Below are positions 1-63,593 of a DNA stretch of 64,000 nt, piece after piece. Numbering within the stretch: the first letter of the stretch is position 1; each line of letters begins with the position of its first letter. The DNA comes from a virus, in the IMG/VR virus record IMGVR_UViG_3300031236_000003, positions 1 to 64,000 of that record; one strand, written 5' to 3'. The position numbers and the translations under genes are program-made. The notes under the pieces are model-generated. The model was given only the letters and a program-made list of their open reading frames with translations. It did no database searches and was not told the origin of the DNA.

Positions 1-130
1 CAAGCGGCGTCCCGAGCGGCCCAAGCGGCGTCCCGAGCGGCCCAAGCGGCGTCCCGAGCGGCGGCCCGAGCGGCCCAAGCGGCGGCCCGAGCGGCCCAAG
101 CGGCGTCCCGAGCGGCGGCCCGAGCGGCGG
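1..130. repeat. GC-rich tandem repeat of 21-nt and 12-nt units
   Basis: Near-perfect copies of a 21-nt unit beginning CAAGCGGCGTCCCGAGCGGC alternate with shorter 12-nt units containing GGCCCGAGCGGC. All unit lengths are multiples of three, so copy number can change without breaking the leftward gene, where the unit reads AARDAAW. The repeat continues past the left edge. Confidence 0.9.
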
Positions 131-560
131 CCGAATCCTTACGAGCAGCATCTAACGGAGCCATGATCGACGGGATTTGAGCCAACGCGGTTATTTCGGG
201 AAACCCGGCCAGCGCGTCAGCGTGAGCGGTTAGTCCGGCCAGGCGCAGCCATGCGGGGGTATGGACGCGGATAAGCCAGTCTGTAGCCATGATTGCGCGG
301 CGGCTCTCAACTTCGGGCGTTGATGCCGTGCCAACCAACCGCGGGATGAAAGGCTTGAGTGTTTGGCGTACTTCGTCGCTCACCGAATCATTGTACGAGC
401 GCAAAAACGCGGAAATGACGGGCGAGGCGCAGGCCGGATGATCGCTCCAGGGTTCGCCTGCGACGTAGGCAACGGCTTCCATGATGCATGCGCCGTCCTC
501 AAATTTGGAGTGAGCGCCCTTTTTGAGTTGAAGTGTTTCGAGGTCGAGGGTAGGTGACAT
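1..560 (-). CDS. Ala-rich repeat protein, truncated by the window edge
   Basis: The frame is open from an ATG at 560 to the left edge, giving 186 codons without a stop, so the C-terminus lies outside the window. The start has GAAAGGA upstream. The globular N-terminal part (about 135 residues) contains CIMEAVAYVAGEPWSDHPAC, a signature I recall from an uncharacterised protein family common in phages and actinobacteria. The last visible part is a repeat of AARDAAW and AARAAAW units that should form an Ala/Arg-rich helix. Function is unknown. It is the most distal visible gene of the leftward operon. Confidence 0.85.
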   Translation of the reverse strand, partial: MSPTLDLETLQLKKGAHSKFEDGACIMEAVAYVAGEPWSDHPACASPVISAFLRSYNDSVSDEVRQTLKPFIPRLVGTASTPEVESRRAIMATDWLIRVHTPAWLRLAGLTAHADALAGFPEITALAQIPSIMAPLDAARKDSAAARAAARDAAWAARAAAWAARAAARDAAWAARDAAWAARDAA

Positions 561-47658: not shown

Positions 47659-47735
47659 GCCATCGTCGTATAGTGGCCCATTACACTCGGCCCTTACCCG
47701 AGTTGACCTCAGTTCGAATCTGAGCGATGGCACCA
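47659..47735 (+). tRNA. tRNA, anticodon CTT by position (Lys), with encoded CCA
   Basis: A complete cloverleaf is present: acceptor GCCATCG/CGATGGC, D-stem GTA/TAC, anticodon stem CTCGG/CCGAG with loop CCCTTAC, and T-arm CTCAG-TTCGAAT-CTGAG, ending ACCA. Counting places the anticodon as CTT (lysine, codon AAG). Position 33 is C instead of the nearly universal T, so the charge identity is not certain. Confidence 0.8.
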
Positions 47736-59959: not shown

Positions 59960-60196
59960 ATGCAAGACGAAGTGGTATCTGGAGTCTACGATATTCTGGC
60001 GAGCAATTATCTGGTTGACGCGAACACTCTGCAAGCGTCACAATTAGTACGCGACCTTGATTTGGACAGCATTGAACTCGTTCAACTCGGCATGGATCTC
60101 GAAGATAAGTTTGGCGTGGAGATTCAGGACGGCGATATCCGCGCAACATCCACAATCGAAGACGTGATCGGCCTGATTCGCAGGCTGCTACCCTAA
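59960..60196 (+). CDS. Acyl carrier protein
   Basis: The product is 78 residues with the four-helix ACP pattern. RDLDLDSIELVQL provides Ser37 in a D-S-x-E/L context as the phosphopantetheine site, and GVEIQDGDIRATSTIEDVIG the third helix. It begins three bases after the helicase stop, with GGAGGTAGCA upstream. No acyltransferase or synthase lies nearby, so it would have to use host enzymes. An ACP in a phage replication operon is unusual. Confidence 0.88.
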   Translation: MQDEVVSGVYDILASNYLVDANTLQASQLVRDLDLDSIELVQLGMDLEDKFGVEIQDGDIRATSTIEDVIGLIRRLLP

Positions 60197-60222: not shown

Positions 60223-60756
60223 ATGAAGTTCACGAACAGGTTCCTGAGCGGCATCGCTGCAATTGCAGTCATGCTTGTGGGCATGATCCCGACGACGGGC
60301 TGCTCTTCCGCCACCATCGCTGACCTGGCGCAGACGCTGGGCAACGCAGGGGCTCAGATCGCGACGCTGGAGAACAACCCGACTCTGGCAGCGAAGCTCA
60401 AAGCGGATACCGCGGCGGCCGTCTCGGCGATTGCCAGTTGGAAGTCGGGTTCGCCGGCTACGGAGGCAATCGAGGCGCTGAATATCGTTGAGGACGACCT
60501 CGACCTGATTCCCGGAACATCGACTTACGCTCCGCTGATTGATCTGGCTATTGGCACCGTAGAGAGCATCCTGGCGCTACTGCCAACTTCGGCAGCGGTT
60601 GTGGCTCCCGCGACGCTGTCGGCACATACGGCGACGTTGAAGGCGAAGCGGCCGGGGATTGCGATCACGAATCCTCCGAAGACGAAGGGTGACTTCAAGA
60701 AGCAGTGGAATGCTATCGTGGCCGAGAGTCCAGTATTGGCGAAGGCAAAGATTTAA
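60223..60756 (+). CDS. Predicted lipoprotein (177 aa)
   Basis: MKFTNRFLSGIAAIAVMLVG then MIPTTGC is a type II signal with a lipobox-like TTGC; Cys27 would be acylated. The mature part is helical and Ala-rich (TLGNAGAQIATLENNPTLAA). Function unknown; superinfection exclusion or envelope modification are possibilities only. A strong hairpin follows the stop. Confidence 0.75.
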   Translation: MKFTNRFLSGIAAIAVMLVGMIPTTGCSSATIADLAQTLGNAGAQIATLENNPTLAAKLKADTAAAVSAIASWKSGSPATEAIEALNIVEDDLDLIPGTSTYAPLIDLAIGTVESILALLPTSAAVVAPATLSAHTATLKAKRPGIAITNPPKTKGDFKKQWNAIVAESPVLAKAKI

Positions 60757-60784
60757 GTTTCCGGCATACCACTTGCCGGGAAAC
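60757..60784 (+). other. Hairpin after the lipoprotein gene
   Basis: GTTTCCGGC (60757-60765) pairs with GCCGGGAAAC (60775-60784) with one bulged G and a 9-base loop. There is no T-run, so it may protect the 3' end or separate the message from the tRNA-like element that begins two bases later. Confidence 0.6.
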
Positions 60785-60785
60785 T

Positions 60786-60860
60786 GCGCGGGGATAGCTC
60801 AGTGGTAGAGCGGCTCCGGTAACGGAGAGGGTCCTCGGTTCGAATTCCTGGGCCCCGCGC
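60786..60860 (+). ncRNA. tRNA-like element without an anticodon loop
   Basis: Acceptor-like ends GCGCGGGG (60786-60793) and CCCCGCGC (60853-60860) pair over 8 bp. TAGCTCAGTGGTAGAGC is a perfect D-arm, and GGTTCGAATTCC a T-arm core with a 6-bp stem holding one mismatch and an 8-base loop. The anticodon arm is CTCCG-GTAA-CGGAG, a 5-bp stem closed by a GNRA tetraloop. No CCA is encoded. It cannot decode as drawn, so it is a tRNA-derived RNA or a decayed tRNA-Thr-like gene. Confidence 0.65.
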
Positions 60861-60881
60861 AGAAATTAGAGACGAGGTTCC

Positions 60882-61283: not shown

Positions 61284-61382
61284 TCTGTAAGCCGGTTTAC
61301 GCGGATGGCTGGTGCGGCAACCAGCATTTAGGGTCGGAGACCGCACTTCTCTGATCCACCAAATCAAGACGAGAGTACCACC

Positions 61383-62450: not shown

Positions 62451-63593
62451 ATGCCCAGAACCTCATTTCAGCAAGGCTCCGTAGTCCGCGTATCCCGCAA
62501 GAGCGGCGATGCGTGGAGATTTCGTTGGCGCGAAAACGGCACTCAGCGCAGCGAGTGGATTGGGACGGTGAAGCAGTTACCGTCCCGCGCCCAGGCCGAG
62601 AAAGCCGCGCAGCGATTCCGCCAGCAGGCAAACTCCGGCATCGAAGTCATCACCATGGCCGATCTCATTGCGAAGTTCTGGCAGGAAGCGGCGCCGGAAC
62701 GCGAGACGACCGCGCACTCGTACCGCAGCATCTTCAAGCGGATCGAGGCCGAGTTCGGCAGTCTACGCGTGGACCAGTTCTGCCGCGAGGTAATGCGCGT
62801 CGAGCAGTGGCTGAAGGAATTGACGGTCATTGGACGGCACCCAAAGCCCGGCGTGAAGCCGCTGGTGAGCGACCTGTACCGCTCCCAGGTGAGGAACCTG
62901 CTGCACTTGCTGATCGAGAAGGCGATGCTTTGGGGGAATGTGCAGGTCGACCGGAATCCCATGGATTTAGTTCGCCTGAAGGGCAGCGCACGCGCCAAGG
63001 AAATCCAGACGCTGACCCCTGAGCAGTACGGCCAGCTTGTCAACGACCCAGAACTGCCGGAGATGGTGCGAGTGTTGATCCAGTTGTTGGCTGGGCTCGG
63101 ACTTCGCATCTCTGAGGGCTTGGGACTTCGCTGGTCAGACATCGACTTCGAATCCGGTACGATCCAGATCAACCGTAGCATGGTCCACGGCCAGGCGAAC
63201 GACACGAAGACGGCTAGCTCGAAGACGGCGCTTCCCTTGCATGAGCGCCTAGTGGACGTGCTGCGCTGGTGGCATGCGCGCGCGCCGAAGTCGGCTTGGG
63301 TGTTTTGCTCGGAGCGGACCGGCGCGCCTTATGACCGGGATTATCTTCGCTCGGAGTATCTGGCTCCGGCCGGCAAGCGGATCGGCGTAGAGGGGCTTGG
63401 CTGGCACTGCCTGCGCCACTCGTATCGAGCTATGCTGCGCGAAAGTGGTGCTTCCCTGGAAGACCAGAAGAGTCTGATGCGGCACTCAAAGTTGGCTACG
63501 ACCGTCGATACTTACGGTGGCCGCGACAGCGTTGAGCGGTTGAGACCCATGAACCAGAAAATTGTCGAGATGCTGCCGAGGAGGAGTGCATGA
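62451..63593 (+). CDS. int: Tyrosine recombinase (integrase)
   Basis: The product is 380 residues. An N-terminal SAM-like/arm domain spans about 1-170. The catalytic domain has Arg in LAGLGLRISEGLGLRW (about 218), Lys in DTKTASSKTALPL (about 248), HxxR as HCLRHSYR (about 320), His in LMRHSKLATT (about 344) and the Tyr nucleophile in VDTYGG (about 354). All five catalytic positions are visible. It integrates the phage genome by site-specific recombination; no attachment site could be identified here. GGAAAGGAAAGCG precedes the ATG. Confidence 0.95.
   Translation: MPRTSFQQGSVVRVSRKSGDAWRFRWRENGTQRSEWIGTVKQLPSRAQAEKAAQRFRQQANSGIEVITMADLIAKFWQEAAPERETTAHSYRSIFKRIEAEFGSLRVDQFCREVMRVEQWLKELTVIGRHPKPGVKPLVSDLYRSQVRNLLHLLIEKAMLWGNVQVDRNPMDLVRLKGSARAKEIQTLTPEQYGQLVNDPELPEMVRVLIQLLAGLGLRISEGLGLRWSDIDFESGTIQINRSMVHGQANDTKTASSKTALPLHERLVDVLRWWHARAPKSAWVFCSERTGAPYDRDYLRSEYLAPAGKRIGVEGLGWHCLRHSYRAMLRESGASLEDQKSLMRHSKLATTVDTYGGRDSVERLRPMNQKIVEMLPRRSA

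Follow-up and report, generated by a model that had tools for sequence, protein, structure and literature searches.

A tRNA-like element with a GTAA tetraloop in an intergenic stem of a temperate Acidobacteriota phage is probably a decaying tRNA remnant

Is a cloverleaf whose anticodon loop has become a GNRA tetraloop a new kind of tRNA mimic, or what is left of an ordinary tRNA gene? The question was raised by a virus record, IMGVR_UViG_3300031236_000003, of which the window analysed here covers 64,000 nucleotides out of 92,923. The coordinates and letters of the tRNA-derived sequence in the window (60786-60860, + strand) checked out. It is preceded by a 177-aa ORF, for which the protein search returned no relatives, and followed by the next gene downstream. 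The element and its altered arm are as follows.

60786-60860 (+): probable remnant resembling tRNA-Val(UAC), with a 6-nt anticodon loop folding as a GTAA tetraloop (RF00005, 30.1 bits; 85% identity over 64 nt to an Acidobacteriota tRNA-Val).
60814-60827 (+): hairpin CTCCG-GTAA-CGGAG replacing the anticodon arm; relative to tRNA-Val, C36 is lost and U33 is changed to G.

Every structural feature listed in the earlier note was found in the sequence, including the D-arm GCTC-AGTGGTA-GAGC, the stem CTCCG/CGGAG closed by GTAA, the 8-nt T-loop TTCGAATT and the absence of an encoded CCA. The 8-bp acceptor was also seen as the outer stem GCGCGGGG/CCCCGCGC, which reached 9 bp with T60785-A60861 and was correctly described as longer than a tRNA acceptor, but it is probably not wholly tRNA. 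The stems had been called intact, and this was true of the outer stem and the GTAA hairpin, which were perfect, whereas in the tRNA register the canonical pairs 7-66 (A.G), 27-43 (G.A) and 51-63 (C.T) were broken. The anticodon loop contained six nucleotides, GGTAAC, folding as G-GTAA-C, and the fifth pair of the apparent anticodon stem was the former loop pair 32-38. The fold z-score was moderate (-2.1, with 6 of 200 shuffles equal or better), and a value of about -2 would also be expected of a recent tRNA remnant.

The tRNA-likeness was borne out by both covariance and BLAST searches. The RF00005 match of 30.1 bits lay barely above the cut-off of 29, with an E-value of 0.03 in the 64-kb scan and 1.9e-4 over a 401-base stretch, far below the 52.8-75.4 bits of intact tRNAs in a similar search, and ARAGORN made no tRNA call at the element. 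A BLAST search of 396 Acidobacteriota genomes showed that the element was 85% identical over 64 nt to a gene that ARAGORN read as tRNA-Val(UAC) (E = 4.7e-13 for one genome). The blocks GGAGAGGGTC and GAGCGnCTCC were exact between the element and Acidobacteriota tRNA-Val(UAC), and in the alignment the anticodon loop TTTACAC corresponded to GGTAAC. On these alignments tRNA-Val(UAC) is likely to be the donor isotype and fits best, although this is not certain because tRNA-Thr shares the CTCGG and GGTAA stretches that occur in the element.

Comparison with a functional tRNA revealed departures in three arms. In place of an anticodon loop of 7 nt that includes U33 and an anticodon triplet, the element has the 6-nt GGTAAC. 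Instead of a 7-bp acceptor whose 3' NCCA is free, pair 7-66 is broken and bases 73-75 pair with the 5' flank; trimming followed by addition of the CCA absent from the DNA is possible in principle. Instead of a 5-bp T-arm with a 7-nt TTCRANY loop, there is an extra T in the loop and a C51.T63 mismatch. The element cannot decode, as had been proposed, because the loop has lost one base together with U33 and the remaining six nucleotides close to a GTAA tetraloop, which is left because bases 32 and 38, still present, are able to pair. Clear tRNA homology is thus combined with lost decoding, as in degenerate phage tRNAs. A sequencing or assembly artefact, in which two single-base indels disfigured an ordinary phage tRNA, could explain the missing anticodon-loop base and the extra T-loop T, but indel errors do not explain the missing CCA or the substitutions at 7/66, 27/43, 51/63, 32 and 33, and the long open frames around the element are intact; such an artefact is barely credible.

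The intact stems had been taken to argue for selection on the fold, a claim that was not supported. Canonical pairs were kept at 18 of 21 positions, and the three losses fit random decay by about seven substitutions: when bacterial tRNAs were substituted at random in simulation, at least 18 pairs were kept in about 60% of trials with 7 changes and in about 5% of trials with 15 changes. The element differed from the nearest tRNA-Val at 15 positions, a span that includes its time as a working tRNA, and for this reason neither figure shows selection since the loss of function. The one feature that stays somewhat unexpected is the GNRA form; a GNRA loop with its closing pair would arise by chance with a probability of the order of 1%, a rough value from base frequencies for a feature picked after the fact.

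The surroundings of the element turned out to be common to related phages. The flanking features in the window and their counterparts in related viral contigs (L numbers) are listed below.

60756-60784 (+): upstream hairpin with the loop TACCACT, common to the window and L097 by flank alignment (hairpin z = -4.1).
60785-60791 (+): TGCGCGG, 5' strand of the outer stem, following the hairpin also in L097, L003, L008, L009 and L186-L188.
60855-60861 (+): CCGCGCA, 3' strand of the outer stem, present in the same contigs.
60863-60879 (+): conserved leader stretch AAATTAGAGACGAGG before the next gene, a possible ribosome-binding region, like CACAAATCnnAGACGAGG in L003, L008 and L097.
61284-61382 (+): tentative second, shorter site GTGCGG...CCGCAC with CCACCAAATCAAGACGAGAG, occupying, by eye, the position orthologous to that of the element in the relatives; the MFE fold prefers a different pairing.
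L003:5660-5790, L008:3755-3950, L009:4890-5000 and L097:9205-9430: recurring hairpin-stem element with differing interiors.

The 5' flanks of the window and L097 aligned with a score of 34 (shuffles: mean 5.7, sd 3.1, maximum 22), and the hairpin stem, which differed between them by a single G-C/C-G swap and the loss of a pair, was kept. The plan in the related phages consisted of the hairpin, (G/A)ATGCGCGG, an interior of about 60-160 nt, CCGCGCAT and a leader, all preceding the gene before the integrase. The stretch AGACGAGG downstream of CCGCGCA recurred in related phages, and the leaders in most of L003, L008, L009, L097 and L186-L188 ended in it or in a similar ribosome-binding stretch. 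No tRNA was found in the interiors of the related stems, and an Rfam search of these elements gave nothing above cut-off, the interiors of L003, L008 and L009 matching no known RNA. Very short ATG...TAG frames occurred in the interiors, encoding Met-Tyr-Thr in L003 (near 5712) and L009 with a synonymous difference and having about 12 codons in L008 and 19 in L097; these could be leader peptides or chance. A hairpin-pattern scan of viral contigs gave 72 matches, which were judged to be chance, as none among the matches listed had the hairpin plus a following stem. The recurring hairpin-stem is a possible new phage leader RNA, and the outer bases GCGCGG/CCGCGC of the 8-bp acceptor probably also belong to the phage's own stem. 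This conserved phage stem, TGCGCGG/CCGCGCA, which in the relatives holds no tRNA, accounts for the lack of CCA and for some of the excess stem length.

The same arrangement bears on whether the tRNA-like fold is kept as a putative structural or processing device of a polycistronic transcript (such as a cleavage site for RNase P or RNase III, or an insulator that separates genes), with the role that other interiors play in the relatives. The relatives retain the outer stem and the hairpin while the interior is swapped, the hairpin folds with a z of about -4, and the D-arm and T-loop consensus bases read by RNase P are mostly kept. However, the 3' end of the element pairs with the 5' flank over 9 bp, which is unusual for an RNase P substrate, and no promoter or terminator pattern was found nearby. 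A device of this type is unlikely, and the suggestion of a packaging or processing signal gained no evidence. It is less likely still that the conserved hairpin and GC-rich stem form a slot for exchangeable RNA cargo, filled here by a GNRA tRNA mimic acting on a tRNA-binding host factor.

The element itself was absent from the related phages (L003-L009, L085-L091, L097 and L186-L188), and neither exact nor gapped patterns of its GTAA form matched any viral contig or bacterial genome contig. Relatives were to be compared for compensatory changes or a 7-base loop, and this comparison had nothing to count, as no recovered relative carries the element. A match in a Salmonella phage (H17) proved to be a normal tRNA whose loop has 7 nt and which reads as Asn(GUU)-like. 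Weak 16.7-bit tRNA matches in three other phages were 3' tRNA fragments located 4 kb from the shared gene and represent a different thing. A 3' tRNA fragment, GGAGGTTCGATTCCTTCCGCTCCGA, was seen at L087:7087-7132 and in the contigs of L085 and L086, phages that share a 133-aa protein; it is a possible attP core.

A tRNA mimic, or a decoy for defence nucleases that target tRNA, had also been suggested. On this reading the element would be under selection, its anticodon loop having been replaced so that a tRNA-cutting host nuclease is withstood or captured. A precedent exists in phage tRNAs whose altered anticodon loops let them escape tRNA nucleases (PMC10264068, PMC11555353), and the loop of the element has no cleavable anticodon. 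Against this, no relative was found to keep the element, three pairs are broken, CCA is missing and there is no link to a defence system. The published nuclease-evading tRNAs are also reportedly functional tRNAs. No positive evidence for the suggestion was found, and a mimic or decoy is very unlikely.

The neighborhood also contains an integrase. The phage DnaB was 70% identical to that of an Acidobacteria MAG contig (L097), and a replication-integration block comprising a 215-aa protein, a 533-aa protein with an exonuclease match, DnaB, an acyl carrier protein and the integrase was common to several soil-type viral contigs. The phage is a temperate soil phage of Acidobacteriota. The acyl carrier protein gene (59960-60196) directly follows dnaB and is kept in most relatives. 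Elsewhere in the window, a normal tRNA-Lys(CTT) with encoded CCA is located at 47659-47735, preceded by a terminator-like hairpin (GGGGTTCC...GGAACCCC, then T-rich sequence). The two ends of the record (window 1-170 and the far end, L084) both consist of one type of GC-rich tandem repeat (AGCGGCGTCCCG with variants), so that the assembly may have broken off within a single array of this repeat.

Integration often targets tRNA genes, fragments of which are widespread (PMC9897764), and the tyrosine integrase lies 1.6 kb downstream of the element at 62451-63593, which would suit a piece of tRNA left by integration into a host tRNA gene. However, the element covers a whole tRNA and not the 3' part alone, and relatives with the same integrase lack it. 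An attP site beside the integrase would be expected to match the 3' part of a host tRNA gene perfectly, but the 3' half of the element matched no searched host tRNA exactly and the best matches in 396 Acidobacteriota genomes were imperfect. An attachment-site remnant is therefore highly improbable. tRNA-dependent lysogeny, which has been described and needs a functional phage tRNA (PMC10865867), was rejected since the element is non-functional.

The element is probably a degenerate tRNA gene in an intergenic stem of this phage, a decaying remnant and not a new tRNA mimic. This reading rests on the RF00005 score barely above cut-off, the 85% identity to tRNA-Val(UAC), the defects and the lack of a relative with the element, on the hairpin and outer stem that L097 shares around a different interior, and on the pair retention that fits random decay, together with the precedent of a degenerate phage tRNA in CBA120 (PMC3184105). 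The perfect outer stem and GTAA hairpin, the figure of about 5% for 15 changes and the uncertain donor isotype are counterpoints. The tRNA may have entered by recombination at GCGG/CCGC, a short stretch that the ends of its acceptor have in common with the phage stem. Such a crossover would turn ...CCGCACCA into ...CCGCGCA, with the ACCA of the tRNA replaced by GCA. After the fusion the copy would have been free to decay, and the GTAA tetraloop would be a by-product of the loss of C36 and the changes at positions 32 and 33. If transcribed, the element would be a stable, folded spacer within a polycistronic mRNA rather than a working tRNA.

As a degenerate tRNA in an unusual placement, the element is chiefly an example of the gain and loss of tRNA genes by phages. 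The hairpin-stem with a variable interior in Acidobacteriota phages may be a better lead than the tRNA remnant; if it is a functional leader RNA, it would represent a phage RNA family, so far undescribed, whose interior can be exchanged.

Bacterial Y RNA (YrlA) has a tRNA-like domain within a larger stem, and the element is similar in this respect. The Rfam scan found no family besides tRNA above the cut-off, hence no Y RNA match, and no Ro/TROVE protein was found in this phage record; identity with Y RNA was rejected on both counts. With RF00005 and Acidobacteriota tRNA-Val(UAC) the element shares the D-arm, T-loop consensus, variable loop and acceptor sequence, whereas it differs from tRNA-Val(UAC) in the 6-nt loop without U33, the 8-nt T-loop, the three broken pairs, the missing CCA and the outer stem lengthened by phage flanks. 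The nuclease-evading phage tRNAs are likewise phage-encoded with an altered anticodon loop, but they retain an anticodon and the element has none (PMC10264068). In its fate the element resembles the degenerate tRNA carried by phage CBA120 (PMC3184105), also a tRNA-derived phage sequence whose function is apparently lost; unlike degenerate tRNAs of that type, the element lies outside a tRNA cluster and inside a common intergenic stem, and its loop forms a GNRA tetraloop.
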